Shown: positions 111 through 31,195, counted from the first letter of the stretch. The stretch: DNA of 31,414 nt from Baffinella frigidus (GCA_026770585.1 MU646333.1:796829-828242), one strand, 5' to 3'. Notes: a model not told the origin generated them from the letters alone. A program made the numbers and translations.

Positions 111-549
111 ACCCCCCCCCCAAAAAAACCTTAACTCTAAACCGGACACGGGTGTGGACGCGGCGGAGAAGGTGCCCACTTGAGCCTCAAAACCTGATCC
201 CCTTAGTGACACCCCTGAGTGACACGTGTCACTTTCTTAAGTTGACAAACCTCAGCCTTCTATGCGAAAAATGACGGTTTACTGCAGTTCTCACCGAGAC
301 AAAAGTCGAGAGTGGAACGTCTCAAAGCAAAAGTGGAACCTCTGTTAACTTAAGAAGTAACAGTGGAGTATTGACTGTTTACTACAGATAGTTTACTACA
401 TGTAGTACGTACTGAATCCCCAAGTGTGTCGGACACGGCACTTTACCACACGGAACTGCTCCCGGGTGGGTGGGTCACGTCCGCGAAACGTTGCGTTGCC
501 AGCACGGTACGCCTACGTACTGAATCCCTGCGTGTGTCTCCTCTCTTAG
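111..549. other. Subtelomeric stretch with exon A echoes; no first exon found
   Basis: No exon carrying a convincing initiation codon for the TPR gene is visible here. Two small fragments of exon A occur, at 154-175 (its first 22 bases) and 252-271. The intron motif before the exon A acceptor (TACGTACTGAATCCC) appears at 406-420 and again at 514-528. An ATG at 261 lies inside an echo of exon A and could open a tiny phase-0 exon, but nothing supports it. The stretch looks like intron sequence running into the telomere. Confidence 0.5.
154..271 (+). repeat. Acceptor-side echoes of TPR exon A
   Basis: 154-175 repeats the first 22 bases of exon A. 252-271 repeats an internal part (CTATGCGAAAAA context). 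Neither has a donor. Confidence 0.55.
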
Positions 550-671
550 GTGGACGCGGCGGAGAAGGTGCTGACAGCCTACTATGCGAAAAAGGAGGCC
601 AAGGTCGGCCCGGACTCGCAGGGGCTTCTTGCCCTGATCGAGGCGCACGTTTTCCTCTACAAGACCAAAGA
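550..671 (+). CDS. TPR gene exon A (first visible exon)
   Basis: Acceptor ttag before 550; donor GTGCGC at 672. It encodes VDAAEKVLTAYY... to ...VFLYKTK in phase 0, leaving GA, which exon B completes to Glu. The helical Ala/Leu/Lys pattern fits a TPR-like helix pair. Confidence 0.8.
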
Positions 672-748
672 GTGCGCCCCCTCCTGAGAGAGAGTGGGGA
701 GAGAGTGAGGAGAGAGACAGAGAGAGAGAGACAGACAGACAGACAGAA

Positions 749-787
<39 letters not shown>

Positions 788-3700
788 GCGAGAGAGAGAG
801 AGAGAGAGCATAGAGAGAGAGAGCGGTGTGCGGGCCCGCCTCAGGTCGGCCCGGACTCGCAGGGGCTGCTTGCCCTGATCGAGGCGCACGTTTTCCTCTA
901 CAAGACCAAAGAGTGCGCCCCTCCTCCCTCTTCACCTTTGCTATTCTCAAGCCTATCAACGACGGTGGTGGGTACTTCTAACGGTCTCTCAAAGAGACGG
1001 TCTTTAGGCAGGGGTATTGGCTCCTCCTCCCCACCCACTTAGCAGCCACCGGTGCCTCCATCTAAAAAATCCCCGTACAAACTGCGCATTCGTTCGCGAG
1101 TAACGTGACCAATCTCGCCCTGATCGAGGTGGCTGTCTTCCTCTACAAGACCAAAGAGTGCGTCCCTCCTCCCCCCCCCGTCTATGTGGGTGTTGACCTC
1201 ATATCCCATTGCCGGTATTGGCACCAGAACCAGATGAGGATAGGAACCTCATATCAGCGACTGAACACTCCTATGGCGCCATAGGAGTGTTCAGTCGCTG
1301 GCGTGGGTGACGCCAGAGGAGTGTTCATTTTGTCCGTGCCGCGCAGAACCAAAACCCCGAAACCCGAAACCCGAAACCTCAAAACCCTTCCATGGTGCAG
1401 GGGCCCGAAACCCGAAACCCGAAACCCGAATGGCAGGGACTGGCCTTCGATGGCGGAGTGGGCTGGCAAGCACCTGGCCTTCATGCGCAAGTTCAAGGGC
1501 GAGGGCACGGTACGCGGAACCTGCATCCTTCGAACCCGAAACCCGAATTCCGAGGCACCTGGTTTGCATATGCAAGTTCAAGGGTGGGGGCACGGTGCTT
1601 GGGATTTCGGGTCTAGCATTCAGCCTTTAGCTTTTGGCCTTGAGCGTTAAGGGGTCGGGTTTGGGCGTCTGGCCTTGATGCACAAGTTCAAGGGCGAGGG
1701 CACGGTCCTTCGAGGCTTCAGGGTTGAGAGGTTGCAGGTTATGGGGTTCCCAAACCTGACTCCCCGCACCCGAAACCCTCGACGCGGGGCTGGCGGTCCG
1801 CATGCGTACGTTCAAGGGCGAGTTTAGAGTTTAGTGTTACAGTAAATACTGTTAACAGATGAAACTGCTTCTGCTATCCGCCCCCCCCGCACCCCCCCCG
1901 CACCCTCCCTCCCCGCCCACCTGCTCCTCCTCCCCTATGATCTTAGAAGTCCTGGCCTTAATGCGTAAGGTCAAGGGCGAGGGCGCGGTGCTGACCCGAA
2001 CCCCGAATCCTTGAACCCGAGACCCGAATCCTTAAATCCGAAACCCGAATCCTTAAACCCGAAACCCGAATCTTTAAACCCGAAACCCGAATCCTTGAAC
2101 CCGAAACCCGAATACCTGAACCCAAAACCCGAATCCTTAAACCCGAAACCCGAATCCTTAAATCCGAACCCCTTGACTTCATGCGTAATTTCCAGGGCGA
2201 GGGCACGGAGCTTTCCCAGCACTCTAAACCCTCAACACTATGTACCGCGTAGTGGTACATAGTGGTTCCTGTGGTATGGACATGGAAAGAATCAGTTTCG
2301 TATGTTACAGTATTTACTGGAACACTGAACCCTCAACTCTTCACCCTAAACCCTAAACCTGCCCCGGCTCTGGCACCGCATGAATCTTCCCTCTCCCGCC
2401 CGCCCGCCTCCCAACATAACGGTTTTAGTGGTCATGAAGGCTTCAGTGCTACCCAAAAACAGGGTTTAGTGTGGCCTAGGCTCGCAACCTAACCACACAG
2501 AGGGCTACGAAGAGATTTCGGGCACTCAGTGCCCGATTTTCCATTGCCTTATCCGTAGGAACCCCCCTATGTTCCTACGGGTTGCCTTCCATAGGGTCAT
2601 AAGTCTTATCGCTTAGGGGTTATTCAAAATCCCTTCGAAGTCCACTGTGTGGTGCCAAATTCGGGTCCACAACCTGTTGGCTATGTTTGTTCCTTTGGCT
2701 TTGTTTGTGCAGCTGGAGGTGGCGGTGTCGCTCGGCAACCCTGACCCTAAACCTACATACACCCATGCTCCTAACCTCATGAAAACCTCAGGTACATAAC
2801 CTGTTACCTATCCATAACCTATGTCCCGGCGGGATTTCTTTTCTTTTTCGGGATATTTCCCCCCCCCCTAAACACGAAACAATGTGTGGCTGTATGGGTG
2901 TCTGACAAACTCCTCTGTCTTTCCCGGCGTAGCTAGCGGTGGCGGTGTCGCTCGGCAACCCTAAACCCTAAACCCTAAACCCTAAACCCTAAACCCTAAA
3001 CCCTAAACCCTAAACCCTAAACCCTAAACCCTAAACCCTAAACCCTAAATCTTTATACACCCGGGAAACAGCTGGAGGTGGCGGTGTCGCTCGGCAACTA
3101 CGCGCTCGCGATCGCGCCCTCGGGTAAGCTCGTAGGCTCATAACCTGATGAAGCTCGTAGGCTCATAACCTGGTTTTCTGGCGCAGTTGGAGGTGGCGGT
3201 GTCACTCGGCAACTACGCGCTCGCGATCGCGCCCTCCGGGAAACTCGAAGAGGCAGAGAAGTGCTTCAACGAAGCCCTCGAGATCCAGCAGGACGTATGG
3301 ACCCCGCCCTCCACCCTGGAGGCAGGGTGGGGGTATTTTGAGCATTCTTAAGTCAACTCCCCTTGAAAAGGACTGAGCCCTCAGTCCCCCGTGATGAATG
3401 GATCTGGTACAAAACGGTCTTATAAGTATTTTAGTGGTACAAATCCTGTCAACTTTTGCGATAAAGGGTTATTCGGGATTGGCCGCAAGTCCCCTCCAGG
3501 GTGGAAACACGCAACTCGAACCCCGAAACCTGGAACAATACACACACTAACCCTGAACCCGGAAACCCCGAATAATACACACTGAACACTAAAACCTGAA
3601 CCCTTAACCCTGAGCCTTGAACCCTGAACCAACGAAGCCCTCGAGATCCAGCAGGACGTATGCGCCCCTCCCACACAGCGGACTTCGAAGGGATTTTGAC

Positions 3701-6700
3701 CCACACACAGCGGACTTCCAAGGGATTCTCTCGGACCCTACGGTAGGCAATCCGTAGGGGCATAGGGGGGTTCCTACGCTGGCGATTGCGCCCTCGGGCT
3801 AGCTCGAGGAGGCGGAGAAGTGCTTCAACGAGGCCCTCGAGATCCAGCAGGACGTTCGTGCCCAACCCATTGCCCTCTCTCGGTCTATTTGGACTCACCA
3901 ATTTGGCGAGCTTGGGCTCTTTTTGCTCCAAAGTTGACGGGTTCCTACCGCGAATCCAGCCTGTCAACTTAACAATAGCCTGTCAACTTCAACGAAGCCC
4001 TCGAGATCCAGCAGGACGTATGGGCCCCGCCCTAAAAGCACGACACCCGAAACCCGAAACCATAAAATCCTGACACCTAAAACCTGGACCCTAAACCCTA
4101 AACCAACAAAGCCCTCGAGATTCAGCAGGACGTATCTGCCCCTCATCCCGAAACCCGAAACCGCGCCCACCCCCGCCGCTCCCCTCCACTCTCGAGGAAA
4201 CGCGTGTGCCTCGGATGTAAACCCTAACGCTAGACCTGAAACCCTAAAGCCTCAATCATTTACACTGAAACCGGAAACCGGAACACTGAACCAACGAAGC
4301 CCTCGAGACCCAGCAGGACGTATGGGCCCCTAAACCCGAAACCCGAAACCCTAATCCCGAAACCCTAGACCCGAAACCCTAAACCCAAACCCCGAAACCC
4401 TAAACCCGAAATCGCGCCCCGCCCCGCCGCCCAACTCCACTCTCGATCAAAACGGTTTCGCATCCGATGTAAACCCTATCAGCCCGAAACCTAAACCCGA
4501 AACCTAACCCCGCCACTGTTGATTAAACGTTTTCGCCCATGATGTCGACCCCCCTGCACTCCTTCTCTGCAAACTCGCTCGCCTGGAATCCAAACACGAA
4601 CGCCAACCCCGAAACACGAAACACGAAAAAGATCAAACGCGTTTGATCGTTTTAGGTTAGGGTTGTGGTTGAAGGTTTATGCGTTTGATCGTTTTCGGGG
4701 GGTTATGTGGTTGATCGTTTTCGGATATAAACGTTAAAACACAACCCTAACCCCAAACCCGAAAACGGTCAAACGCTGCCGCCTCTGATATGAACCTCAA
4801 ACCACTACCACAACCACAACCACAACCACAACCACAACCACAACCACAACCACAACCAAAACCAAAACCACAACCACAACCACAACCACAGCCCTAACCC
4901 TGAGATATGGTGGGAGCAGAAGCTGGGGAAGGAGAGCGAGCACGTGGCCCAGACCCTCCACAACCTCGCCCTTCTCTTCCGCAACTCCATGCAGTTCTCC
5001 AAGGTGTGTTCCCAGGGGGGGCGGGAGGGTGCATGGGTTAGGTTTGAGGGTTTAGGGGTTAGGGGTTAGGGGTGCAGGTTCCAGGTTTCGGCCCACCTGT
5101 TCGGTAACGCCATGCAGTTTTCCAAGGTGTGTTCACAAGGGGCCAGGGAGGGTTCAGGGGTTAGGTTTGAGGGTTCAGAGGTTAGGGTTGGAGTTTCCGG
5201 GTTCCGGTTTCGGGTTTCGGCTCTCTTCTGCCGCAGCTCCATGTTTTTGCCAAGGTGTGTTCTCAAGGGGTGCAGGGGTTAGGTTTGAGGGGTTAGGGGT
5301 TAGGGTTCGGGGTTCGGGGTTCGGGGTTCGGCCCTCCTCTTCCGCAAGTCCATGCAGTTTTCCAAGGTGTGACCAAGCCCAGCTCACACGCGTGGTTCAA
5401 TCAAGCGTCCTGTCCCCTCCATTGCCGGCGATGTAAATGGAGGGCACGGGCGCCGTGGAACAGCCCCGCCGGCAGGCTCTTGAGCGCCCGCGTGACCGGT
5501 CACGCGGACGCCGAAGCCAACTGTCCGAGGTGACTGCCTTGTCATGTTCCCCTCCATTGCCGGCGATGTAAATGGAGGGCACGGGCGCCAAAAACCCGAA
5601 ACCCGAAACCCGAAACTCCATTCAGTTTGCCAAGGTGTGTGCTCATACACCCTGAACCCTACACCCTAAACCTAAACCTTAAACCCCAAACCCTAAACCC
5701 TAAACCCTAAACCCTAAACCCTAAACCCTAAACCCTAAACCCTAAACCCTAAGCCCTAACTTGACGACGGGGGGGGGGGCACCCCCCCCGTATGGGACGG
5801 GGCCCGCCGGCAGGCTCGTGAACGGCCCTTTTGACCCCGCGAAAAGGCGTCTTGTGGCCTCGAACCCACGACGGGCCCGCCCCGCTGGCAGGATCCGCAG
5901 GCCGAGGATCCCCCAGCTTGCGGAATAGCCTTAAACCCCAAACCCTAACTCTAACCCTAGGCGGAGGAGCCGTACGAGCGTTCGCGGCAGATCTGGCGCA
6001 AGAAGGAGAGCTTGTTGTTAGCGGGTTTTCGGACAAGAGACACACAGTATACGTATAATGTGTATAACACGAGTGAAGATATACGTATATTATGTATGAC
6101 ACGTGTTAATGTGTACGTATAATATGCAGGACACATGTTAAAAGGAAGTTTTGATATGAACGTATAATATATTATGGATAACAAGTGTTAATATGTACGT
6201 ATAATATACGTATATTATGCATAACACGTGTCGCAGTGCAGGCCGAGGAGCCGTACGAGCGCTCGCGGCAGATCTGGCGCAAGCAGGAGTCTCTGTCTCT
6301 GCTCGTATATATCACGAGTAGACAGAGAGAGATGACACCCAATATACGTATAATATGTACAGAAAGACACATCATATACGTATAATATGTAAAACAATTG
6401 TTTTGGCAGACAATATACGTATAATAGGTAAACCAATTGTTTTGCAGGCGGAGGAGCCGTACGAGCGCTCGCGGCAGATCTGGCGCAAAAAGGAGTCCTG
6501 GGGCCTCCTCTCTCTCGCTGCGCGTATATACGTGTAATATGTAAAACACGTGTTAATATATACGTATATTATGTATAAAAGGTGTTAATGTGTACGTATA
6601 ATATACGTATATTATGCATAACACGTGTCGCGGTGCAGGCGGAGGAGCCGTACGAGCGCTCGCGGCAGATCTGGCGCAAGAAGGAATCCTGGGGCCTCCT

Positions 6701-9700
6701 CGCCGTGTCCTGCAAGGTAGAAGAAGTCCGCTGTGTGGTCGTATATATACGAATAATATGCGGCGTTTCTGCCTAACCCTGGCACGGTTCATACGGCTGG
6801 TACCAGGGAAACGAGGTGTGAGAGGGTGCGCTGGTAGCCTCGTGGACGGTAGAGGTCCTAGCTCTGCCTCACTCGGGTTGGCTGACTATGCATAAGTTGA
6901 CATACTGGGTGTGCGGTACAAATCTGTCAACTTTGGGGCGAAAGAAGGAGTCGTGGGGCCTCCTTGCAGTGTCCTGCAAGGTCTGGCCGACTATTCTCAA
7001 GTTGCCATGCTGGGTTCGCGGTACAAATCCGTCAACTTTGGGGTGGGAAAGAGCCCGGGCGAAGCAAACTGGTGAGCCCGAATAGACCTCATCTCGGAAG
7101 ATAACTAAATCAGTGATAAACGCACTTTTTCTTAATAAACGCACTTTTTCTTCCCTATTGACCGATGGGCGCTGCTGGGCCACTCGAGAATGCTAGAGGG
7201 GCCTATCTAAAACCGAACATATAAAATCTTTACTACACAAATGCTCCATTTTGTACCAGGATAAGATAAAAATAACCTCGCGTCTGTATAATTTTTACCA
7301 GGCACGAGGTTACTTGACCTTATCCTGGTACAAATATTTACAACCTTTTTTTTTACACATATAAATAGGCCCCTCTAGCGTGCTCCTGTGGGGCAGGGGA
7401 AACCCGGGCGTGGTTCCCTAACCTGAAACCTGAAACCCGAACCCTGGACCGGCTGCAGGATTCTGCGATCATGTATGACATGGCAGGAAACCAGGACAAG
7501 GCAATCGCCATGGTGCGCCTCCCCAAGCCCTAAACCCTAAACCCAAAACCCAAAACCCTGAAGCCCAAACCTCAAACCCCAAACTCCCAAACCACAAACC
7601 ACAAACCACAAACCACAAACCCTAAACCCCAAACCCCGAACCCTAAGCTCTAAACCCCTCAACCCCAAACCCCAAACCCCAAACCCCAAACCCCAAACCC
7701 CAAACCCCAAACCCCAAAACCCCAACCCCAAAACAACTCGACAAGGCGGTGCACGCGGATGATAAGTTGACGTTTAGTTGACTTATGGATCATAAGTCGA
7801 CGTTGAGTTGACTTTGGCAGCTCGACAAGGCGACGCACGCGATCGAATTCATGACCTGACGCGATACTCATAACCTGATGCGGTACCATGCGGCTTTTGG
7901 ATGATAAGTTGACGTCTAGTTGACTAAGTTGACGTTGACTTAAGTTGACAATGAGTTGACTTTGGCAGCTCGACAAGGCGACGCACGCGATCGAGCGTCT
8001 GCCGGACGAGATCCACGGACATGATAAGTTGACGTTGAGTTGACTTTTGGATCATAAGTTGACATTCACTTGACTTATGGATCATAAGTTGACGTTTAGT
8101 TGTCTTATGGATGATAAGTTGACAATGAGTTGACTTTGGCAGCTCGATAAGGCGACGCACGCGATCGAGCGTCTGCCGGACGAGATCCACGGACAGGTTC
8201 ACCAAACCCCAAACCCTAAACCCTAAACACTAAACACTAAACACTAAACACTAAACACTAAACACTCAACCCAAACTCAAACCCAAAACCCTAAACCCCA
8301 AACCCTAAACCCTCAATCCTGAACCCTTAATCCTAAACCCTGATCCCTAAACCCTGAACCCTGAACCCTAAACCCTGAACCCTAAACCCTAAACCCTAAA
8401 CCCCAAACCCTGAAACCTAAATCCCAAACCCCTAAACCCTAAACCCCGAACCCTAAACCCTAAACACTAAATACTGAACCCTACAGCCTACACCCCAAAC
8501 CCAAAACACCAAACCCCAAACTCCAAACTCCAAACACCAAACACCAAACTCCAAACATCAAACTCCAAACACCAAACACCAAACCCAAAAACAGGTTGCC
8601 GACCAGCTGGGCATCGCCGAGCTACGCAACAGGTGCGGATTTCTGTGTAGGATGGGATTTTTGTGTGGGATGTTTTTTTGTGTGGGATGGGCGGGAGGTC
8701 CTCGGAGAGGCGCACGAACTACACGGGAGCCGGTTCGGGGGTTCGGAGATTTGATACTCTTTGATATCTTAGCCTTCCTTGCTTATCTTAACCTTATCAA
8801 AATGAGATTAAGATAAGCACGGATATGCTATTTAGGCTTCAAATCAAGGCTCGGTGCGGCAATCTTGCACCCACTCGAAAATGCTCGAGGGTCCTTTTTA
8901 CATGTAGGGTTCTAAACATGTGTGTTTTCTTGTGAGCGAGGTGCCCCTCCAGCTCTGTCTGGGTAAACCTGGGCTCGCAATAAGAGCATTTTACAGGGGT
9001 GCCTCGCTCATAAGAAAACGCCCCCCCCCTAGGACCATCATAGGGCCCCAGGCATGGGCCTACTGTAGGCTCCTAGGGTGGTGCGCTTTCTTATGAGCGA
9101 GGTACCCCTGTGGTTGTCCGTGTGTACGAAAACGGACGAATGCGGTCAGTTCAGTCGGTGTTCTTAGCGAGGCCTGTACAGGGGTACCTCGCTCAAAAGA
9201 AACCGTGCCCCCCTAGGACCCTACAGTAGGCCGACCATACAGTAGGCCTATGCCCAGGGCTCTAGGGTGGAAAATCAAGATTTTCTGCTCCCAACGTGTT
9301 CTATGGCGAGCCCACTTTTAGCAAAAATGTTTTTCTTCGCATACGTTTATACTTGGTGATATATGACTCTGGGTAGGTGAGTCTCTAGAGCGTATGTTCT
9401 ACTCTCTCGTGTCGCCTCCCAGAGTCGAGGTCCTAGGCCGGTCCTAGGGCCCTACGGTAGGGCGAATGAGCCTACTGGTCACTTAAGGGATACTCAGGCA
9501 AGTCGACAGCCGTGGGGCTCTGACCCCCCCTCCTCCTGTCATGTCAATCCGCGAGGCCACTCAATTTCAACCGCCTTTTATGCTATCTTAAGGGTGGTTT
9601 CTCTCTTATTTTGCTATATTAGCTTCGACATAGCTTTAATATAGGAAAAAATCCACACCAAGATAGCAAAAACACGGTTTAGATTGAGTGGCCTCGCACA

Positions 9701-10339: not shown

Positions 10340-10363
10340 GGGGGACGCTCCGCAGGGCTATGC

Positions 10364-14103: not shown

Positions 14104-14151
14104 TTAGTACTCGAGGATGGGCGCGTCGACGGTCTCGATTTTCGGGATGTT
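14104..14151 (-). repeat. 3' echo of GTPase exon 6 with stop codon
   Basis: It lies downstream of the gene on the minus strand and encodes NIPKIETVDAPILEY followed by TAA, so it keeps the 3' end of the terminal exon. Four changes are synonymous and three replace residues. Confidence 0.82.
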
Positions 14152-17800: not shown

Positions 17801-20800
17801 CAACGTTTCGTTTCGTGGTACTAAATTAGTGTTCCCTTTGCGGTGAGACGCAGCTGAAATGGACCAATCTGGGAAGCCCACTTGCGTGGGGGTCAAGACG
17901 AAGGAAGATGCGAGAGCCAGGGGTTAAGGTTTCGCAGGTTCCGGGTTCCGGGTTTCGAGTTTCGGGTTCCGGTTTTCGGGTTTTCGGGTTCCGGGTTTTA
18001 GGTTTCGGTTTTCGGGTTCCGGTTTTCGGGTTTCGGGTTTCGGGTTTCTGGTTTCTGGTTTCGGGTTTCGGGTCCAGACCTGCTCCTCCGGAGCGTAAGA
18101 GGCGAACGAATCGTATTTGGTCCCCACGAGGATCGGCACCGCGGTTTTGTTGAAGCCTCTCGCTTGCCGGTACCTGCAAAGTCAACCCTGGGTCAGAATA
18201 TCTGCAAAGTCAACCCTGGCTCAGAATATCTGCAAAGCCAACCCTGGCTCAAAAGTCACCGGTACCTGCAGCCGGTCGGTTAGGGCCGTAAGTCAACCCT
18301 GGCAGGGCACATAGAGAGGCCTTTGTCAATCACGAGGATGGGCACCGCTGTTTTGTTGAAGCCTCTCGCCTTCCGGTACCTGCGGTTAAGGGAAAGGTGT
18401 TTTTCTTTTAGAATCTGGCAAAAAATATTCCAACACAAATGCCTGGGTCCAAAGTCAACCATGGGTCAGAAGTCAACCATAGATCAAAAATGAACCATGG
18501 GTCATAAGTCAACCCTGGGTCAAAAGTCAACCCTGGCGGGTCAAAACGTGCAGTCAACTTTTGGGGTGTTGAGTTCGCGGGGCGTCAACATTCGGGAGTT
18601 CCGACCCTGTCGTCATCCCTGGCTGGGCAGAGAGAGAGAGACCTTTATCAATACCAACACGGCTGCCGTGCTTGCACCCACCACTTAGCAGCCACCGGGG
18701 GCTTCACGGATACTGTCCATCTAGACGATTTGTACTAGAATCTTATCCATTGCCCCGGAATTTTAACCGCGTTTCCCCCGGATATCCGGGGGAAACGGAA
18801 CTCGGCTGCTGCTGAGGGGCAGAGGGGGAGGGGAGGGCGGGGCGGCGGGGAGTCTCACTCTTTTACGTTGTTGTGTTTAGGGTTTAGGGTTATGGGGCGT
18901 ACCACTCATTGACGTTGTGGAGCGTAGCAATTCGCGAGAGGTCGAATGTAAGAAGGATCCTACCCCCTAAACCTCCTCGGTTTGGGACTTGTGAACAGCC
19001 ACTGAGCAGCGGCCAAGTTCTTTTTCGCCTTGAATTCAAGGTGAAATTCCGGTTAGGTTCTAGAGCAATGGATAAGATTGGAGTACAAATCGTTAAGGTG
19101 GACTGTATCCGTGAAGCCCCCGGTGGCTGCTAAGTGGCTACCAGTACCCCTCTCAAGGTGAAGAGGACGGGGAAGAGGAGGGGTTTAGTACCACTCTTTC
19201 ACGATGTTGAGCGTCGCGATTCGCGAGAGGTGGAACGTCAAGAGGATTGCAGCGGCGTCGTTGCACACCAGCGGCGGGGGGGCAGTACCCATATTTCACG
19301 TTTGTTGACGGTGTTGAGGGTGACGATGCAGGAGAGAGTAGGGCTTCGGTTCTGGGGTCTACGGTTTGGCGGGTTTTTTTGTTTTGGGGCTCAGGATGTA
19401 CCACTCTTTCACGTTGTTGAACGTGGTGATGCGGGTCTCGGGTCTATATGGTCTAGGGTCTAGGGTTTCAGGGTTCGTTTTTTTGGAGGGGGGGGGGTCG
19501 GTACCATTCTTTGACGTTGTTGAGCGTGGCGATTCGCGAGAGGTCGAATGTGAAGAGGATTGCAGCGGCGTCGTTGCACACCAGCGGCGGGGGGGCAGTA
19601 CCCATATTTCACGTTTTTTGACGGTGTTGAGGGTGGCGATGCAGGAGAGTAGGGCTTCGGGTCTGGGGTCTACGGTTTAGCGGGGGATTTTTTGGGGGGT
19701 GGCTTAGGATGTACCACTCTTTAACGTTGTTGAGCGTGGCGATTCGCGAGAGGTCGAAAGTGAAGAGGATTGCAGCAGCGTCGTTGCACACCAGCGGGAG
19801 CATGTTCACGAATTCTGGCTGCCTGCGGTTTAGGGGTAAGGGTTGAGGGGGAAGGGCAAAGCGTGAGGTCGGGCGCAGGGGTGGGCTGTCGTGCGTGCGG
19901 ACTTATCTCAGAAAAGAGATTTTGAAATTCGTTTTCGTAAGTCAATTCCTGTATAAATTCGTCAAATTATTATTTTCTCTGCGCATACGTTGACAAATTT
20001 GAGGGGGGGTTGACTTAAGAAAACGAATTTAAAAACCATTTTTCTGAGATAAGGACGTGGGTTCGAGTGCTGACAGTGTTTCAGTCAGCGAAGTGATACC
20101 CACACAGCGGGCTACACAGGGACGGCGGATCGCGAGAGGCCGAATGTGAAGAGGATTGCAGCGGCGTCGCTGCATTGCAGCGGCGTCGCTGCACACCAGC
20201 GGGAGCATGTTCACGAATTCTGGCTGCCTGTAAAGGGTTGAGGGTTTACTTCGGAACTCCTAACCGATTCTTGGTGGCTCGGCCACCAAGAATCCCTTCG
20301 TAGCCCGCTGAGTGAAGAGGATTGCAGCCGCGTCGTTAAACACAAGAGAAAACGTATTCACGAATCCTGGCTGCTTGTTGAGGGTTGAGGGTTGAGGGTG
20401 CTTCCTGTGCTTCGAGTGTAGGGTTTAGAGCTGAGGCTTCAGGGCGTAGGGTTTAGGTTAGGGTGCAGCGTCGATGCACACCAGTGGCAACATGTTCACA
20501 AATTCCGGCTGCCTGTTTAGGGTGGGTTTAGGGTCAATACAACCAGGGTCAATACACCGGTTCGTGTCCTTGTTCGGGAGTAACCCTTGTAGGGGTTTTA
20601 GTCGTAAAACCCCTGGAAAGTTCGGTAGTTTCTCCTACGGCATTGTCTAGGACCTCCTACCGTAGGCCAAAATCCTAGGAAAATTTGGCCCTAGGAGCCC
20701 TACGGCCTACGGTAGGTAGGTCCTACCTGAATCCGTAGGGAAACTACCGAACTTTCCAGGAGTTTCCCTATGAGTTTGACAGTACAACCACGCAAGAGGG

Positions 20801-23228: not shown

Positions 23229-26200
23229 GTACTGCCCAGTTCCTACCTGTGATCCGGACATGATGCGAGGACGCTCCTGCCCGCGCCCATAGATCCAGAG
23301 ACCCGCTTCCGTGCTCACCACTCGCGGTCAGCAAGTGTGCGCATGCGACTGCCCCTCGAGCGGCGACCCACTCCCGGAGAGGCCTGGTTGCCTCCCCGCT
23401 GGCAGCCTCGCATCGGATCCTGCGGATCATCTGGGAATCGCTGCTTCAAGGGGGTGTTTGGCGCCCGGGCCTCGCCGACATGCGGAGATGGACCCACCGC
23501 GTGCCGTGGGAGAGGTGTCCACGCGAGGGTTGAGCGTGGAGTGCCCGCAGGTATGTCGGGAACAAGAGCGCGGTGTTCCCGTTGCAGACGCTCGGGATGG
23601 ACGTTGACATCATCAACTCTGTGCAATTCTCCAACCACACAGGTCAACTCACCCCCCCCCTCGATTCTCGATCGTCCCCCCCCCCACCCCCCCCCCCCCC
23701 CCTCGCGTGGTGCATCGCCACCTCGCACACAGGATCCCCGCATCGCTGCAACTCGTTCTTGTTCGCAGACGAGGGAGAGAAGCTATATCCAACTTATGCC
23801 GTCGACCATAAACATAATGCGTTCAGAGAGGGTTCGAAAGTGAAGGTATCAAGGCTCAAGTGTCCTGGCAAATTATGGGTTTTCGGGGGCCTCTCCAGGC
23901 ATTTTTTTCCTAGTCCACTATTTCCCTGCGGGGCTGCAAGCTAACTAAGTTTATTTTCCGATGTCTTTTACAAGTGATTTTACCGCGGCCGAATCGTCTC
24001 TTAAGGAAACGATTGACTTTTGATGGCGGGTTTCCCGTTTTTAGGGGATTTGTACGGGGAGTCGCCCGAAATCGGGGAGCTTTGCCGTACAAAAATAATA
24101 GAAGGACACATGCAATAGAAACAATCAGAAACAATCGGACAACAACCCTCTAGAATTCCAAGGCATCAATTTCGACCTAACTTTTAGGGGAGTCGCTCAA
24201 GAGCCAAGATGGCAGCCCGCAAATAATGACTGAACGCAGAAGTTCCCCGAACCACAGGAGGCTACCCAGGCGAACAGAATAAAACGGACTTTTAAAGTTT
24301 TGTGGGCAAATGATCACGTTTCCGCCCGCTGAGCGGTCGGACCTGTGTAAAGTCGCTGCTTTTCAGCTGAAAATTACTACACACGTTTACAATCGACATG
24401 TATTCTGTTCGCATAGGTAGCCTCGTGTGGAACGGCCTGCACCCTCTGCACAAAACCACCACCAAATAATGACTGAACGCAAAAGGCACCGAGCCAGGAT
24501 GCTCGAAACGTCCACTTTTGACATCTTTCAAGGAAAACCCCTTGAATCCTTAAGTCAACCACGTCAGATCTTACGTGGATAAGGCGTCGGTTTACCTCGA
24601 TCAATATGGCGTGGCACCGCACGGCCTGCACCCTCTGATGAAAACCACCACCCCGTATTTGGGTTTAAAATGAATCTGGGTTTAAAAGGCGGTTTTGGCC
24701 TACAACTATTTTACATGCTCCAACCGATGGGGTTTGGACTTCCAAAGGTGGCCGGTCGCGCCGAAAGTTGTGGGAATTGGAGCCGTTTGGTGCACCACAC
24801 AGCGGGCTTCGAACGGATTTTCGGCCCATTTCGGGCCGGCTTTCCGTTACCTGATCCGTAGGAACCCACCTATGTCCCTACGAGTTGCCTACCGTAGGTT
24901 CGTATGTCTTGTCGGTTATGGGTTATTCACGAATCCCTTTTTAGTCCGCTGTGTGACAGGGGTTCCGGAACCTGTTCAAACGAAATACCGAAATGGTGGA
25001 TTTTTTTAGTAGCTGTCCACCAACGGGTGCGCTTTCCCGCACGGAAGGGTGTGTCCAGCACACGGTATGGTGTGTTCAGCACACGCGCACGCCGCCCTCG
25101 TCCACCAACCGTTGCATGTTCCCGTGCGCACGTCCACCAACCGTCGCGTGTTCGCGTGCGCAGGATACCCGTCGTGGACGGGGCGTTCTCAGGTGATGGA
25201 TGGGGACGACCTCTGGGATCTCGTTGAGGGCCTCAAGGCCAATAACCTGATGAAGCACTCGCACCTCCTCACCGGTCCCGCCCCTCAATCACTCGAGGCT
25301 AGAAATGTGACTATTTTAAAACAGTCATTCTTTTACAAGTGAAGAAAAAAACTGTGTATTAATTTTCACACAAATAGGGGCATTTGGTCACGTATTTCAA
25401 GTTATAACTTGAGATACGTGACCAAGCATGCCCGTGACTGGTACTAAATTTAACAACCCCACATTTAAAATACTCCCTCTTCCAGCCTCGAGTGGAAACT
25501 CTTCGCGATCCTGAATAGATTTTTTTCCAGATTCAGCTTGACATTGGAGCCATTTCTCACTTTTAGGGGTTTACAATACCTGGGTTTGTACTGGCAATCT
25601 TTTAGATGGGACACGTTGCGAAATAAATTGCATTCGTGCTGGGACTGAAATAACCTAAATCCAGCACTGGTGGTCAAACGGGGAAGGTCGGGCCGAGAAA
25701 CTGTGAGATGTTGAATGTGTTTGAGTTTGCTAGGGGTTTTGTTTAGAACCGAGCGGATTGTTTCACTGCCCCAGGGCGAGTGGATCAGGGTGGACACCGT
25801 AATTCCGGCTAGGCAACTACGGTAGAGCGGTTTTCTCATCTGTCGGCCACTCACCGACATGAAAATATGAACAAGGGCTCCAATTCCGGCAACTTTTGGC
25901 GTGATTCTGAAGTTTTAGAGTTTTATTTTGTGATAAAAATGCCAAAAGTGGCCGGAATTGGAGCCCTTGTTCATAAATTTCATATCGGTTGGTGGCCGAC
26001 AGATGCGAAAACCGCTCTAACTACGGCAGGGAACTACAGGTAACCACCTAACTACGGCATTCCGTGACGAGGCGCGTGAAACCGCAGGGTGCATGCGGTC
26101 ACCATCACCCCTCATCCCTGACTCTACCCTGCGCGATGCAGGGTGCATGCGGTCACCATCACTCCTCATCCCTGAACCCTACCCTGCGCTATACTATACT

Positions 26201-29200
26201 ATACTATACTATACTGTTCTGTACTATCCTATCCTATGCTATATTATCCTCTTCCCTCCTTTCCTATCCTATCTTATCCTATCGCAGGGTACATGCGGGT
26301 GTGCAGCAGGATACCCTAAAACCAGCGCTAGTGGCCAAGCGGGGAAGGTCTGGCCGAAAAACTGTGAGATGTTGAAGTGTTTGGGTTTGCCTACGGCTTA
26401 GGGTTTACTTTCAGAACCCAAAGCGCGTGAAACCGCAGGGGTGCATGCGGTCACCACCACCCCTCATCCCTGAACCCTGCCCTGAAACCGCAGGGTACAT
26501 ACGGGTGTGCAGCAGCATACCCCCCTGGTAGAACCCCCGCGAACCTGAACCGAGTGGAATGCTTCACTCGGGGTACATGCGGTCGCCCGTGCTGCTCCAC
26601 ACGGCCGATCAGTTCAGCTCCCTTACGAATTGACCGGCACTGGTCAAACGCTGGTCAAACTCGTGCGGCAAACTCTGACGGGGCTTGGGAGACAGGTACT
26701 GTTTCAGCCCTTTCAGGTATAAGTTTCAGCCCTTCCAGGCACAATCGTGTTGACGTTACACCCAGCATAAACTCCCTCAATCTCGCCGTGTGGTGGCGCA
26801 GGGTACATGCGGTCGCCGGACCTGCTCCACACGGTCGCTGGGTTCAACCTCCCTACGAATTCATCCGCACTAGTCAAACTCACGAATTGACCAGTACTGG
26901 TCAAACGCTGGTCAAACTCGCGGCGTGGTGACTGCTTCGAACCGTGTGGCGGCGCAGGGTACATGCGGTCGCCGGACCTGCTCCGCACGGTGCTCCGCAC
27001 GCTCGACGAGATCCGCGCCGTCAACCCCGATGCTGTCTACGGTCTAAACCCTACACCTAAACCCTGTACGGACCGTCTCACACTAAATCCTGACACTGTC
27101 CGTCCCACACTCAATACTGTCCATCCTACACGAAACCCTGTCCGTCCCACACTCCACCATATCCGCCCCACACTCAATCCTGGCCGTCTTACACGAAACC
27201 CTGTCCGTCCTACACGAAACCCTCAGCTCTCAGGACACGACTGTTTCGGACCATGTGTGGAATCTTGGTGCATGCGGCTGAAAACGCTCGACGAGATTCG
27301 CGCCGTGAACCCCGACGCTGTCTACGGTCTAAACCCTACACCTAAACCCTGTACGGACCGTCCCACACTAAATCCTGACACTGTCCGCCCCACACTCAAT
27401 CCTGGCCGTCTTACACGAAACCCTGTCCGTCCTACACGAAACCCTCAGCTCTCAGAACCCGACCCGGATGCTGTCTACGGTGTAAACCCTACACGCAAAC
27501 CCTGTACGGTCTGTCCCTCACGAGACTCGACCCCCCCCGTATACTGCAAACAGGTCGCATACTGTCACCAGTAAGTTGACAATTTTGACCACTTTGGTGG
27601 GTGGCAGTGTGTGACCCGGTGATGGGCGACCACGGGAAACTGTATATCCCCGTGGAGCCAGAATCCATATAGCTATTCCGGTAGGACTTGTCCGCTTTTC
27701 GACTTCGAGATCTCAAGATTTCAGACTGCGAAAAGGGTTTCAAGGTCGTAAATCGTTTTTAAACGCACCGTTTCAAATCTCACGGTACAATCCACATCTG
27801 GTATGGATTCTGGTGACTCAACGGGCTGGCAGTATGCCGGAGTGACTTTACAAAAGGCACCCCTGGGCGCCAGAAAGAGCTCCCCCGAGGCGTGCCTATC
27901 CCAGGCAAGTTCTAACGAAAGAATGGGGTGGTGGGTGGCAGTGTGTGACCCGGTGACGGGCGACCACAGGAAGCTGTATATCCCCGCGGAGCTGGCGGTT
28001 TCATTTCATTAGGAGGCCTAATTAAACGTACTATGCCCTAGCTAATTTCTCCTATGCAACCTCCTACTGAGAAGGAACTGATTCGGGTATCTTCGGAGAT
28101 GAGATTCTGATGACTCAATGGGGTGGCAGTGTGCGACCCGGTGATGGGCGACCATGGGAAGCTGTATATCCCCGCGGAGCTGGTGCCCATCTACCGTGAT
28201 GAGGTTTCTCCCTCTCTAGGATTTTCGGAGGTTTCTCCCTCGGGTTTGGTGTTTTCGATTTTTTGGTTTTTACGTTTCAAGTTTTACGTTTCAAGTTTTA
28301 GGTTTTGGATGGTTGGTTCGGAGAGGATTGTCCCTACGAGAGAGTGCCTTGGGCGGCCATGGAAAGCTGATATATCCCCGCGGAGCTGGTACCCATGAGG
28401 TTCCTCCCCCACTCGGATTTGTGGTTTTAGGGTTGAGATTTTTGGGGTAGGTTTCAAGTTTTACGTGTCAAGTTTTACGTTTCAAGTTTTACGTTTCAAG
28501 CTTTACGTTTCAAGTTTTACGTTTTGGATGGTTTTTGTAGGAGAGCACTGGCCCTGGCAGGAGAGGACTTGCCCTCTCTGAGAGATCTCTGAGAGAGTGC
28601 GTTGGGCGAGCACGGGAAGCTGTATATCCCAGCGGAGCTGGTGCCCATCTATCGCGATGAGGTTTCTCCCTCACTCGGGTTCGGGTTTTCGATTTTTTAG
28701 GTTTTCGTTTTTAGAGTTTTCAGGAGAGACACTTTCTTTTTTAGGAGATGCACCTTTTTGTTTAGGAGAAACACTTCTTCTCGCAGCGAGAGAGTGACTT
28801 GGGGCGACCATGGGAAGCGTCATGTCCCTGCGGAGCTGCTGCCCATTTACCGTGATGCGGTTTGGGGTTTGAGGGTGTAGGGTTGCAGGGCACCTCCCAG
28901 AAGGAGGCGCCCGGACGCCCCCCCGCAACCTCCGCACCCCCCTCGCAACCCTCGCACCCCCCCTCGCAACCCTCGCACCCCCCCTCGCAACCCTCGCACC
29001 CCCCCTTGCAACCCCCGCAACCCCCCCGTCATCTCCGCAACGCCCCCCCTTCCCTAGGGAGACCGTGCTTCGGAATACAGGGCTGCCCTATTTCCTCCTA
29101 ATGGAATGAAACCGCCAGCTCCGCGGGGGTATACAGCTTCCTGTGGTCGCCCGTCACCGGGTCACACACTGCCACCCACCACCCCATTCTTTCGTTAGAA

Positions 29201-29417
29201 CTTGCTCACAAGGCGGCTATGCTGCGGAAACGACTAAAACAAATACCACACAGTTCTGGTTTACTAGTCATAGTAAATTTACTGCACAGTTCTGGTTTAC
29301 TAGTCATAGTAAATTTACTGCACAGTTCTGGTTTACTAGTCATAGTAAATTTACTGCACAGTTCCGGTTTACTAGTCATATTAAAGCATATTTGTAGTAA
29401 TATTCGTTACCCAGAAA

Positions 29418-29452
<35 letters not shown>

Positions 29453-31195
29453 GTTTCCTGAAGAACCCCCCCCCCTTACAGGTGGTGCCGAAAGCGACGA
29501 TCCTCACTCCCAACCAGGTGTGGTCCCTAAACCCTACACCCTGAAGCTCAAACCTTAAACACCAGAACCCCAGAACCCCAGAACCCCAGAACCCCAGAAC
29601 CCTAAATCCCTAAATCCCTAACCCCCCCCAAAAAACAAGAACCAAACACCAAACACCAAACACCAAACACCAAACACCAAACACCCCAAACACCCCAAAC
29701 ACCCCAAACACCCCAAACACCAAACACCACACCCCAAACACCCCAAACACCCCAAACACCCCAAACACCCCAAACACCAAACACCAAACACCAAACTAGT
29801 TCGAGGCGGAGCTGCTCACCGACGTTCCGATCCGCTCCATCCAGGTCCCCTACCCCTCAACCTTAAACCTTCAATCTTAAACCCTGAACCCCAAACCCTA
29901 AACCCTAAGCCCTAAACCCTAAACCCTGAACCCTGAACCCTGAACCCTGAACCCTGAACTCTGAACCCTAAACCCTGAACCCTGAACTCTGAACCCTGGA
30001 CCCTTGACCCTGAAACCTAAACCCTGATCACTAGACCTCAAACCCTGATCGCTAGACCACAAACCCTGATCACTAGACCACAAACCCTGATCACTAGACC
30101 ACAACCCCTAAACTCTCAACACTCCGTCCAGGATGCCGTCACCGCCGCCGACTGCCTCCATTCAAAAGGTGCCCTACATCATGAACCACACACCTCATAC
30201 CCTCAACCCTGCACACACCTCGTACCCTGAACCCTGATACCCTCATACCCTGAACCCACACACCTTATGCCCTGAACCACACACCTCATACCCTGAACCC
30301 ACACACCTCATACCCTGGACCCTGCACCTTGCATCGTGAACCCTAACCCCCAGACCCTAAACGCTAATCCCTGCACCCTAAACCCCACCCACCAAAACCT
30401 CACCCACCAAAATCCCTCAACCCTAAACCCTAAACCCTAACCCCTGAACCCCAACCCCTAAACCCTGAACCCTGAAACCCTAAACCCTAAACCCTAAACC
30501 CGGCTCCCTAAACCCCACCCACCAAAACCCCTCAACCCTAAATCCTAAACCCTAAGCCTTGAACCCTAAACCCTAACCCCTTAACCCTCAACCCTGAACC
30601 CTAAACCCTAAACCCGAAATTCTAAACCCTAAGCCCTAAATCCCAGGGGTGAAATGCGTAGTGATCACATCGATGTGCGTCGAGGGGGACGACGAGACCA
30701 TCTCGCTCATCTCGCTCATCAAATCTCGCTCATCAAACCTCATCAAACCTCAAACCCTAAACCCTGCACCCTGAACCCTGAACCCTGGACTGAACCCTGC
30801 TCTGAACACCAAACTTTCCCTAACCTTCAATCCCAAGCGTAGGGGTGAAATGCGTAGTGATCACGTCGATGTGCGTCGAGGGGGACGACGAGACCATCTC
30901 GCTCATCTCGTCCCGCGTGCAACCTGGTCCGAACCCCGAACCCCCAAACACCAAACCCAAACAAAACCCCAACCAAACAACCCCAAAACCAAACAACCCC
31001 CAACCCCAACCCCAACCCAAACCCAAACCCAAACCCAAACCCAAACCCAAACCCAAACCCAAACCCAAACCCAAACCCATACCCAAACAAACCCACACAC
31101 GACCAACCCCGAACCCAAACAAATTCAAAATCTAAAATTTACCCCCACCCCCCCCGCAGGTCGGGAACCAGAGCGGTTGCAGATAGGCATGATCT
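23152..31195 (+). CDS. PDXK: Pyridoxal kinase, first ten exons (3' end beyond window)
   Basis: Exons 23152-23228, 23551-23642, 25164-25274, 26958-27041, 28130-28203, 29482-29517, 29800-29844, 30132-30168, 30843-30926 and 31160-31195 join in phase into 225 codons plus one base. PDXK is a cytosolic ribokinase-fold enzyme that phosphorylates pyridoxal, pyridoxine and pyridoxamine with ATP in B6 salvage. Visible motifs are the N-terminal [16 protein letters not shown] substrate loop, [65 protein letters not shown] and VVITS. The catalytic GTGD segment and C terminus should follow after 31195. The order and spacing fit plant and animal PDXK of about 300 residues. The last exon's donor is the least certain border. 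Confidence 0.95.
23551..23642 (+). CDS. PDXK: PDXK exon 2
   Basis: Acceptor CCGCAG; the first base completes Gly. It reads [20 protein letters not shown] then [10 protein letters not shown]; donor GTCAAC. This is the pyridoxal-binding N-terminal core. Confidence 0.95.
24252..24430. mobile_element. Foldback element, family G, diverged
   Basis: Same ends (GGAGGCTACCCAGGCGAACA and complement); the right half of the core is replaced. In PDXK intron 2. Confidence 0.78.
24795..24955. mobile_element. Foldback element, family D
   Basis: CCACACAGCGGGCTTCGAA to TAGTCCGCTGTGTG, with core CCGTAGGAACCCACCTATG, in PDXK intron 2. Confidence 0.8.
25164..25274 (+). CDS. PDXK: PDXK exon 3
   Basis: Acceptor GCGCAG, donor GTCCCG; split Gly codons at both ends. 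It reads [20 protein letters not shown] then [16 protein letters not shown], the lid/dimer segment ending at the LTGY motif. Confidence 0.95.
25814..26036. mobile_element. Foldback element, ~220-bp palindrome
   Basis: Arms starting AACTACGGTAGAGCGGTTTT pair almost to the centre (GGGCTCCAATTCCGGC...). Related end sequences occur near 21765-21895. A smaller palindrome (TTGGTCACGTATTTCAAG) lies at 25387-25432. Confidence 0.85.
26088..26835 (+). repeat. Acceptor-side echoes of PDXK exon 4 (seven)
   Basis: Copies start near 26088, 26142, 26288, 26439, 26494, 26572 and 26802. Most are 11-16 bases (GGTACATGCGG or GGTGCATGCGG after CAG). The last two reach 34-36 bases; the one at 26572 has lost its AG. 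Several share the following ACCATCACCCCTCATCCCTG intron motif. Confidence 0.82.
26958..27041 (+). CDS. PDXK: PDXK exon 4
   Basis: Acceptor GCGCAG, donor GTCTAA. It reads [20 protein letters not shown] then VNPDAVY. It is the only copy carrying both splice sites among about ten partial ones. Confidence 0.94.
27284..27482 (+). repeat. Donor-side echoes of PDXK exon 4 (two)
   Basis: 27284-27326 repeats [14 protein letters not shown] with three synonymous changes, and the next ~130 bp of intron is nearly identical to the intron after the live exon. About 27465-27482 keeps only DPDAVY and the donor. Confidence 0.93.
27608..27995 (+). repeat. Acceptor-side echoes of PDXK exon 5 (two)
   Basis: 27608-27658 and 27942-27995 follow an intact TGGCAG and encode CDPV(M/T)GDH(G/R)KLYIP, then break off before the donor. 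Confidence 0.92.
28130..28203 (+). CDS. PDXK: PDXK exon 5 (CDPVMGD)
   Basis: Acceptor TGGCAG, donor GTTTCT. Two bases complete Val, then [20 protein letters not shown] and YRDE. CDPVMGD is the family hallmark. Five partial direct copies and one inverted copy surround it. Confidence 0.94.
28268..28525. repeat. TTTTACGTTTCAAG tandem repeat
   Basis: Tandem 14-bp units in two clusters, around the first donor-side echo of PDXK exon 5. Confidence 0.9.
28351..28859 (+). repeat. Donor-side echoes of PDXK exon 5 (three)
   Basis: 28351-28399, 28605-28661 and 28803-28859 begin at the same point (after an AGAGAGTGC-like motif) and end before GT. 28605-28661 carries four synonymous changes and one replacement. 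The shared left junction shows that one echo was itself amplified. Confidence 0.92.
28920..29036. repeat. CTCGCACCCCCC-type tandem repeat
   Basis: Imperfect ~19-bp units built on CTCGCAACCCTCGCACCCC in PDXK intron 5. Confidence 0.88.
29094..29204 (-). repeat. Inverted copy of an exon 5 echo with flanks
   Basis: It is the reverse complement of about 27907-28016, covering the flank, the acceptor, the truncated exon and the breakpoint sequence GGCGGTTTCATT. It lies in the next intron, so the already broken echo was moved as a unit. Confidence 0.85.
29248..29390. repeat. 36-bp tandem repeat, four copies
   Basis: Units begin CACAGTTCTGGTTTACTAGT; the fourth is diverged. An (AT)n tract follows at 29419-29450. 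Confidence 0.93.
29482..29517 (+). CDS. PDXK: PDXK exon 6
   Basis: Acceptor TTACAG, donor GTGTGG, 12 codons ([12 protein letters not shown]), part of the conserved TPNQFEAE signature. Confidence 0.93.
29640..29795. repeat. CACCAAA / CACCCCAAA array
   Basis: A homogeneous array ending at the acceptor of PDXK exon 7. Confidence 0.93.
29800..29844 (+). CDS. PDXK: PDXK exon 7
   Basis: Acceptor ACTAG, donor GTCCCC, 15 codons ([15 protein letters not shown]), directly continuing the TPNQ motif. An array of CACCAAA/CACCCCAAA repeats precedes it. Confidence 0.92.
29860..30118. repeat. CCCTGAA array with CTAGACCACAAACCCTGATCA subrepeat
   Basis: It fills PDXK intron 7. The 3' part is a higher-order unit of about 21 bp repeated four times. 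Confidence 0.9.
30132..30168 (+). CDS. PDXK: PDXK exon 8
   Basis: Acceptor TCCAG, donor GTGCCC, 12 codons ([12 protein letters not shown]) plus G; matches the helix before the VVITS strand. Confidence 0.88.
30647..30720 (+). repeat. Acceptor-side echo of PDXK exon 9
   Basis: It follows CCCAG and matches exon 9 through ISLIS with a single synonymous change. It then runs into a short CTCATC repeat where the donor should be. Confidence 0.92.
30843..30926 (+). CDS. PDXK: PDXK exon 9
   Basis: Acceptor CGTAG. GG completes Gly, then [20 protein letters not shown] and ISSRVQP. Donor GTCCGA at 30927 is preferred because only it gives an open phase into the next exon; a GTGCAA at 30917 would lead to a stop. 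Confidence 0.85.
31009..31080. repeat. CCCAAA hexamer array
   Basis: A near-perfect hexamer array in PDXK intron 9. Confidence 0.93.
31160..31195 (+). CDS. PDXK: PDXK exon 10 (3' border uncertain)
   Basis: Acceptor CCGCAG; it continues as [11 protein letters not shown], compatible with the family's KPE-F-I segment. The likely donor is GTTCGC at 31196, followed by CT/CA microsatellite. Confidence 0.65.

Follow-up and report, generated by a model that had tools for sequence, protein, structure and literature searches.

Side-dependent truncated exon copies in introns of the cryptophyte alga Baffinella frigidus point to an unusual route of intron growth

The introns of three genes in a stretch of nuclear DNA of the Arctic cryptophyte alga Baffinella frigidus contain partial copies of the exons beside which they lie, and the end that such a copy retains depends on its side: copies lying 5' of the live exon keep the exon 5' end, and copies lying 3' of it keep the exon 3' end. 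These partial copies with a side-dependent retained end are confirmed as a real observation in the analysed stretch (GCA_026770585.1, MU646333.1:796829-828242; 31,414 nucleotides (nt), hereafter the window). Truncated exon copies in introns point to an unusual route of intron growth, and introns probably grow here by tandem duplications that break once within an exon and once within an intron next to it.

The window, which contains no N, is located inside a contig of 1,314,810 bases (C31:796829-828242) of a genome of 534.5 Mbp, 6.1 times the size of the Guillardia theta genome (87.2 Mbp), with 41.1% of repeats; the word "intron" does not occur in the main text of the genome paper (PMC9756366). 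It includes a gene for a TPR protein on the plus strand, an Spg1/Tem1-like GTPase gene on the minus strand, and the pyridoxal kinase gene PDXK on the plus strand. The live exons were set independently of the copies. For the TPR gene, deposited as T484DRAFT_1768811 (P0061), they were derived from the reading frame, the splice sites and the homologue P0062 (44% identity); for the GTPase gene from the transcript-derived protein P0065 (MMETSP, 99% identical; the Guillardia theta counterpart is P0068); and for PDXK from the deposited B. frigidus protein P0001, to which the spliced peptide is 100% identical. P0065 and P0062 each contain every exon once. All 23 exons were compared by BLAST with the whole window.

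This search gave 61 rows, comprising 57 partial copies on the same strand and in the same gene, one inverted copy, and three rows which were dropped, namely a P2 match to another gene (E 0.02) and, beyond G3 and G4, two internal G2 matches (E 0.013 and 0.035; 74-76% identity). Some retained rows are equally weak (E 0.047, 0.054), and with the G2 matches included the internal copies would rise by two, while the wrong-side count would stay at zero. Among the copies 5' of the live exon 23 of 26 retain the exon 5' end and three are internal, and among those 3' of it 27 of 31 retain the exon 3' end and four are internal; thus, the predicted end is kept by 50 of the 57 copies, seven are internal, and the wrong end was retained by none. 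Two internal pieces (253-274 and 15061-15087) are colinear continuations of 5'-side copies divided by insertions, and another (2938-2959) begins at exon nt 6 with AG in place. The splice dinucleotides are preserved in most of the copies examined (AG in 19 of 24 on the 5' side, GT in 23 of 26 on the 3' side), and the end-retaining copies of one exon reach ten (G3), with differing flanks. The aligned fragments total 2584 nt, as compared with 1857 nt of live exon, and their length equals about 11% of the intron sequence counted (23.7 kb), one fragment lying downstream of a gene.

The initial annotation had described at least 14 exons in three genes on both strands, accompanied by over 45 copies with no clear echo on the wrong side, and in these respects it agrees with the present counts (13 exons by BLAST and the 14th, T9, by eye only). 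Its numbers of 5'-side versus 3'-side copies were reproduced for TPR exon C (T3, three versus five, the internal-scored 2938-2959 included) and for PDXK exon 5 (P4, two versus three, counting 28350-28396), whereas for GTPase exon 3 (G3, five versus six) the five 5'-side copies recur and the 3' side has five plus two internal ones. It also mentioned a few copies with a lost splice dinucleotide and one internal fragment; the present count of internal copies is seven.

Chance is an unlikely origin of the copies, judging by the controls: reversed exons gave one match and codon-shuffled exons a mean of 2.55 (maximum 7 in 20 rounds) versus 58 real matches with the inverted copy included, and at E<=1e-3 the numbers were 0, a mean of 0.05, and 51, respectively. 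Retrocopies from mRNA were considered and rejected, as no fragment spanning an exon-exon junction was seen on inspection of the BLAST rows, no junction search being made.

The exons and copies of the TPR gene are as follows (here and below nt are positions within the exon, and copies, as well as their absence from the window, are from BLAST unless stated otherwise).

550..671, +, live exon T1 (P0061, P0062); further exons upstream outside the window
154..175, +, T1 copy, 5' side, nt 1-22
253..274, +, T1 nt 26-47, colinear continuation of the 154 copy after an insertion
843..912, +, T1 copy, 3' side, nt 53-122, GT kept
1113..1157, +, T1 copy, 3' side, nt 78-122, GT kept
1437..1509, +, live exon T2
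1555..1594, +, T2 copy, 3' side, nt 34-73
1669..1704, +, T2 copy, 3' side, nt 38-73
1801..1822, +, T2 internal fragment, 3' side, nt 46-67
1951..1987, +, T2 copy, 3' side, nt 37-73
2171..2207, +, T2 copy, 3' side, nt 37-73, donor GA
3187..3294, +, live exon T3
2714..2739, +, T3 copy, 5' side, nt 2-27, AG kept
2938..2959, +, T3 copy, 5' side, nt 6-27, AG kept, then perfect CCCTAAA repeats; scored internal
3073..3135, +, T3 copy, 5' side, nt 2-64
3630..3657, +, T3 copy, 3' side, nt 81-108
3777..3853, +, T3 copy, 3' side, nt 32-108, TAG in frame within the match
3987..4017, +, T3 copy, 3' side, nt 78-108, 100% identical
4104..4131, +, T3 copy, 3' side, nt 81-108
4292..4319, +, T3 copy, 3' side, nt 81-108
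4920..5003, +, live exon T4
5091..5126, +, T4 copy, 3' side, nt 49-84, 61 nt of shared intron
5331..5366, +, T4 copy, 3' side, nt 49-84
5610..5634, +, T4 copy, 3' side, nt 60-84
6639..6716, +, live exon T5
5961..6007, +, T5 copy, 5' side, nt 1-47
6242..6291, +, T5 copy, 5' side, nt 1-50, 74 nt of shared intron
6448..6510, +, T5 copy, 5' side, nt 1-63
6937..6980, +, T5 copy, 3' side, nt 35-78
7459..7512, +, live exon T6, no copy found in the window
8143..8196, +, live exon T7
7737..7757, +, T7 copy, 5' side, nt 1-21, AG replaced by AA; weak, E 0.047
7821..7865, +, T7 copy, 5' side, nt 1-44, 64 nt of shared intron
7969..8021, +, T7 copy, 5' side, nt 1-53 of 54, last base and donor lost
8595..8632, +, live exon T8, no copy found in the window
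10282..10339, +, last exon T9 with stop
10128..10149, +, short T9 copy, 5' side, seen by eye, below the BLAST threshold

A 30-bp minisatellite at 7757-8136 in the T6-T7 intron is interleaved with the T7 copies. The public protein P0061 is a gene model which takes several truncated copies as exons and as a result shows internal repeats, and other models of the B. frigidus genome may share this fault. The (CCCTAAA)n at position 1 was considered as a telomere or chromosome end and rejected in favour of intron filler, because the window is internal to a contig and P0061 has residues upstream of T1.

The GTPase gene has the following exons (P0065) and copies.

22524..22607, -, exon G1
22219..22385, -, exon G2, no clear copy in the window
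19715..19822, -, live exon G3
20124..20227, -, G3 copy, 5' side, nt 1-85, internal duplication
20311..20374, -, G3 copy, 5' side, nt 1-64
20465..20512, -, G3 copy, 5' side, nt 1-48
20791..20865, -, G3 copy, 5' side, nt 1-78
21253..21296, -, G3 copy, 5' side, nt 1-46
19617..19649, -, G3 internal fragment, 3' side, nt 71-103
19505..19587, -, G3 copy, 3' side, nt 26-108
19402..19433, -, G3 copy, 3' side, nt 77-108
19305..19336, -, G3 internal fragment, 3' side, nt 71-102
19192..19274, -, G3 copy, 3' side, nt 26-108
18903..18958, -, G3 copy, 3' side, nt 53-108
18856..18873, -, G3 copy, 3' side, nt 91-108, donor GT lost; weak, E 0.054
18080..18173, -, live exon G4
18331..18379, -, G4 copy, 5' side, nt 1-49
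16594..16686, -, live exon G5
17572..17621, -, G5 copy, 5' side, nt 1-50, 146 nt of shared intron
17110..17157, -, G5 copy, 5' side, nt 1-48
16406..16477, -, G5 copy, 3' side, nt 22-93, 100% identical, donor AT
16222..16292, -, G5 copy, 3' side, nt 23-93
16219..16665, -, tandem array of G5 3' part and intron, period 188, 2.4 copies, 81% match
14791..14880, -, last exon G6 with stop
15344..15379, -, G6 copy, 5' side, nt 1-36
15061..15087, -, G6 nt 38-64, continuation of the 15344 copy, split by a dispersed element
14104..14153, -, G6 copy, 3' side, nt 41-90 including the stop, beyond the last exon of the gene

The dispersed element which splits the G6 copy (about 140 nt, 15205-15343) recurs at 18681-18822 and 18999-19137. 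In the related GTPase P0066 residues about 30-50 resemble a retained intron with a second VVKV; this insert is possibly a 3'-side copy of the end of that exon, and, being very short, it is a lead only.

For PDXK the exons and copies are listed below.

23551..23642, +, exon P1, no copy found in the window (BLAST with 23552-23642)
25164..25274, +, exon P2, no same-gene copy found
26958..27041, +, live exon P3 (P0001)
26572..26604, +, P3 copy, 5' side, nt 1-33
26802..26835, +, P3 copy, 5' side, nt 1-34
27284..27326, +, P3 copy, 3' side, nt 42-84, 111 nt of shared intron
27462..27479, +, P3 copy, 3' side, nt 67-84; weak, E 0.037
28130..28203, +, live exon P4 (P0001), exon 5 of the initial annotation
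27608..27671, +, P4 copy, 5' side, nt 1-64
27942..27995, +, P4 copy, 5' side, nt 1-54
28350..28396, +, P4 copy, 3' side, matched nt 16-61; by eye 3' end kept after a small deletion
28603..28661, +, P4 copy, 3' side, nt 16-74
28802..28857, +, P4 copy, 3' side, nt 17-72
29115..29168, -, inverted P4 copy, nt 1-54, the sole inverted exon copy in the window BLAST
29482..29517, +, exon P5, no copy found in the window
29800..29844, +, exon P6, no copy found in the window
30132..30168, +, exon P7, no copy found in the window
30843..30916, +, live exon P8 (P0001)
30647..30714, +, P8 copy, 5' side, nt 1-68

The stretch 29094-29205 is an inverted duplicate (98%) of 27905-28016 and carries a 5'-side P4 copy.

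The copies of neighbouring exons occupy separate territories without interleaving. Five introns hold both kinds of fragments (T2-T3, T4-T5, G3-G4, G5-G6 and P3-P4), and in each of them the 3' fragments of the upstream exon all precede the 5' fragments of the downstream exon. Adjacent direct repeats that include both exon and intron are present at window positions 16219-16665 and at another locus of the genome, L033 (1942-2311; 2.0 copies with period 187, comprising 81 nt of exon together with intron and matching at 91% with 0% indels). What is shown directly comprises the rule of sides, the order of the territories, these two literal tandem units and the recurrence at other loci.

According to the proposed mechanism, segments of about 100-400 nt straddling an exon edge, a size estimated from the copy spacing, would be duplicated repeatedly and locally. 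A breakpoint within the exon would leave one intact exon and one truncated copy, with the mRNA unchanged and the event tolerated. Duplication together with the upstream intron would place a fragment with the acceptor and the exon 5' end 5' of the live exon, and duplication together with the downstream intron would place a fragment with the exon 3' end and the donor 3' of it; the polarity arises because the copy joined to the remainder of the exon is the complete one. For this reason the "strict polarity rule" of the initial annotation does not stand as a law, since any tandem duplication leaving one intact exon must give it. Double-strand-break repair with filler is a likely molecular route, in view of the many telomere-like arrays in the introns and of the target duplication and in-register microhomology at some horse loci with telomeric insertions (PMC7215372). 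Selection would eliminate events without an intact exon and full-length copies would be thinned, since they would be spliced in. Tentatively, the sequences joined in many events may be coding copies that had diverged earlier, as alleles or as paralogues since lost, and whose introns differ.

The sample of other loci included 16 loci (74.6 kb), of which 13 match a dispersed repeat of the window introns and three were taken at arbitrary coordinates. A side-blind classifier used a codon model trained on the window exons and took the best-scoring AG-to-GT reading frame as the live copy; repeats common to several loci were masked, families with a coding score below 10 and weakly aligned copies were skipped uncounted, and the families partly overlap, with a few copies counted twice. 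In the window 32 of 33 copies were consistent with the side rule and one was contrary, and at the other loci 45 of 60 copies were consistent and three contrary, the remaining 12 being full-length or ambiguous; 10 of the 16 loci had one or more consistent copies. On re-reading with the rule known, the contrary row of the window corresponds to the G6 copy that is split. For L022 and L036 the re-reading suggests that the live copy was wrongly assigned by the program and that the sequences agree with the rule, and the L033 family is overlapped by two full-length copies. By eye, L033 shows an exon with three 5' and two 3' fragments and also two complete exon copies, L008 an exon with two 5' fragments, and L022 exons with 3' fragments; the exons are presumably EF-G-like, M13-peptidase-like and DEG-protease-like, respectively, names which come from no search. 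In the match tables for PF00118 and PF00012 no copies stand out, these tables being too coarse for judging fragments. At G000:C709:130108-134621 two uninterrupted full-model HSP70 matches stand head to head (866.6 bits each).

These data bear on the possibility that whole exons were duplicated and one copy decayed afterwards. Such decay should affect both ends equally, whereas the lost end faces the live exon in 50 of the 57 window copies (seven being internal) and in 45 of 48 unambiguous cases at other loci, and just one of the 57 window copies is nearly complete (T7, 53 of 54 nt). Despite the 12 of 60 full or ambiguous copies outside the window, for example the two complete L033 exons, this origin is regarded as improbable. 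Under the proposed tandem duplications full-length copies, some of these 12 being merely ambiguous, are the minority that would be expected if whole extra exons were harmful. With regard to the initial annotation, which spoke of a genome-wide mode always leaving one intact exon, the 45 of 48 consistent cases support the former on a small sample, and truncated copies do dominate, but full-length ones also exist.

A further comparison was provided by the ENA-derived protein P0054 of a relative (1,273-nt contig), in which a complete P8-like exon corresponds to residues 163-198 with one difference in the exon. It is preceded by two truncated P8 copies, at residues 31-51 in frame and at about 93-115 in another frame. 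At P8 the window has one 5'-side copy, the end of which differs from those of the P0054 copies. The comparison of this protein with the window suggests, for one exon, a turnover of fragments between relatives.

The intron flanks and the codon positions give a more complex picture. With gapped alignment 20 of 51 window copies match the intron flank of their live exon better than any unrelated flank. Agreement with the live acceptor is 0.83, 0.92 and 0.79 at -1 to -3 and 0.33-0.58 beyond (n=24), and agreement with the live donor is 0.92, 0.92, 0.69 and 0.88 at +1 to +4, followed by 0.5, 0.38, 0.38 and 0.77 at +5 to +8 (n=26). The differences from the live exon by first, second and third codon position number 36, 46 and 147 in the 57 window copies and 39, 27 and 116 in 46 copies from other loci, a list made by hand from the classifier output with some full or ambiguous copies included, some families omitted and one weak copy dropped. 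The third-position ratio is 3.57 (bootstrap 2.83-4.75) in the window and 3.55 at the other loci. Composition was rejected as the cause, since the excess persists at non-CpG G/C sites (10.2% versus 3.2-3.4%) and for transversions (7.7% versus about 2%). Among the 11 copies with a shared flank, divergence is 9.3% in the intron, 3.2% at first and second positions and 15.6% at third positions, so that silent sites differ more than even the shared intron, all on small numbers. Local alignments contain few indels (five in the 57 window copies, two in the 46 elsewhere), larger ones being hidden by the method.

Several of these results weigh against simple tandem duplication. As many as 23 of 51 copies score 8 or less in the flank comparison, many with exon parts over 90% identical, and a stricter ungapped flank test was passed by 11 of 88 copies (57 from the window and 31 hand-listed elsewhere). 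Exon divergence is about equal in copies with and without a shared flank, and for this reason a gradual loss of flank homology with age is not favoured. Homology frequently ends at the splice consensus, which simple tandem duplication does not predict. Third positions differ by 15.8% and first and second positions by about 4.2%, and a ratio near 1.7 is the estimate for a fragment evolving neutrally next to an exon under constraint. The same excess in the 11 flank-sharing copies disfavours a purely allelic origin for those, and a second GTPase gene copy was not found in the searchable genome, and for neither the GTPase nor the TPR gene did a second haplotype appear there. Finally, the four contrary rows (three at other loci, one in the window) were re-read by someone aware of the rule. 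Hence the tandem duplication suggested by the initial annotation is upheld by the side rule, the territories and the two tandem arrays, and predicts neither the mismatch of the flanks nor the third-position excess. The copies may have been coding sequences that diverged before they were joined, the fragments may be constrained, or the silent sites of the live exons may change unusually fast; grouping of the copies by first- and second-position changes, which sets divergence before birth against constraint, gave contradictory answers.

The third-position concentration, as between alleles, the often unlike flanks and the draft quality ascribed to the assembly in the available part of PMC9756366 could indicate assembly artefacts, with diverged haplotypes or repeats chained wrongly. 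Against this stand the ten end-retaining G3 fragments with differing flanks in a window free of N, the literal tandem arrays, the occurrence in 10 of 16 other loci and the copies of P0054 on a separate contig of a relative, and such artefacts appear very improbable.

Constraint on the fragments would be explained if they were kept by selection as spliceable half-exons, under both coding and splice-site constraint. The roughly 3.5-fold third-position excess, the preserved AG and GT with agreement falling just beyond the consensus, the scarcity of indels in local alignments and the several copies modelled as exons in P0061 are in line with this proposal. At the same time transcript-derived P0065, and likewise P0062, has each exon once, AG or GT is lost in some copies, the copy at 3777-3853 contains an in-frame stop, and P0061 may reflect a mere prediction error; this explanation is considered unlikely. 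It is also doubtful, and slightly more so, that a live exon together with its copies provides redundant splice sites and coding halves, from which the exon could be built with different donors and acceptors; if true, the amino-acid sequence and splice consensus of the copies would be kept while the remaining intron turns over.

The copies are often separated by low-complexity, telomere-like or dispersed-repeat stretches. Filler of the telomere-like type is abundant (2310 nt resembling CCCTAAA on the sense strand, in 23.7 kb of intron), and for horse the insertion of telomeric repeats has been described together with direct duplication of the target and microhomology in register (PMC7215372, available part), which would agree with target-site duplications of inserted elements, be they introners, transposons or telomeric repeats joined on at staggered breaks. 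Unlike in such duplications, one boundary of the exon copies is mostly fixed at the splice site and the other is variable, the fillers are of many kinds, and the available part of the same study gives simple duplication in only 3 of 66 horse loci. This source of the copies has little probability, and tandem duplication across exon edges remains the favoured reading.

CCCTAAA arrays in the window stand at 1-115, 2957-3049, 5649-5759, 15385-15478 and 21142-21401, and such arrays mostly have the C-rich strand in gene sense (2310 versus 154 nt in 21 window introns). A CCCTAAA array contains neither AG nor GT, and the sense orientation is therefore splice-silent. A strict orientation rule was rejected, as 16 exon flanks elsewhere gave 1190 versus 476 nt, with loci mixed or opposite. 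Other repeats include a dispersed one at 6857-6944 (the target of about 50 of the 55 scored matches; of its 2227 first-look candidates 40 were scored) and foldback (inverted-repeat) elements, presumably similar to miniature inverted-repeat transposable elements, in the T9-G6 gap (13281-13401, 14368-14485) and in GTPase introns (15845-16065, 20607-20765).

Intron growth is usually ascribed to transposons. The large genome of B. frigidus would show another process, duplications anchored on exon edges, the traces of which occur in the window and at 10 of the 16 further loci sampled. Each fragment represents an event beside a live reference exon, from which direction, breakpoints and age are readable, and, as the number of fragments differs in a relative (one case, P0054), rates may be measurable. 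The process could also explain why gene models such as P0061 contain internal repeats, and the third-position excess is a sharp, testable anomaly.

Among known systems, introner elements are very many intronic insertions in an algal genome. The exon copies described here differ in having no common element, as each matches and derives from its own neighbouring exon, dispersed elements being a separate class. Tandem exon duplication and mutually exclusive exons likewise give extra exon copies adjoining an exon; the B. frigidus copies, in contrast, are mostly truncated. They are absent from P0065, the one protein derived from a transcript, and several are included in the predicted TPR gene model P0061. 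In the AGGT model the copy of the downstream exon lies just after the donor and that of the upstream exon just before the acceptor, whereas this order is reversed in all five window introns with both kinds of fragments. The model, intron gain through duplication of an exonic segment as presented in the available part of PMC4974935, is similar in that coding sequence is tandemly duplicated and turned intronic with the protein kept. Interstitial telomeric insertions (PMC7215372, available part) resemble the present case in their internal telomere-like arrays, sometimes with direct target duplication. Simple duplication is rare there (3 of 66 loci), whereas in B. frigidus exon-edge copies dominate and the fillers are varied, telomeric repeats lying between duplicates for some copies (2938 to 3073) and not for many others (uncounted).

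No description of exon-edge fragments as a pervasive intron component was present among the matches listed in the open-licence literature (titles and abstract starts), in accordance with the initial annotation, which knew of no report of such a genome-wide mode. What appears to be new, with no report among those matches, is boundary-spanning duplication as a pervasive source of intron sequence and not as a single case. The known single cases include potato RdRp (PMC4974935, available part), in which likewise a tandem duplication extends over an intron-exon boundary and the fragment is intronic, upstream of the intact exon. That case was one event by which a new intron was made, whereas in B. 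frigidus introns that presumably were already in place hold as many as ten end-retaining fragments of a single exon (G3), on both sides and in several genes.

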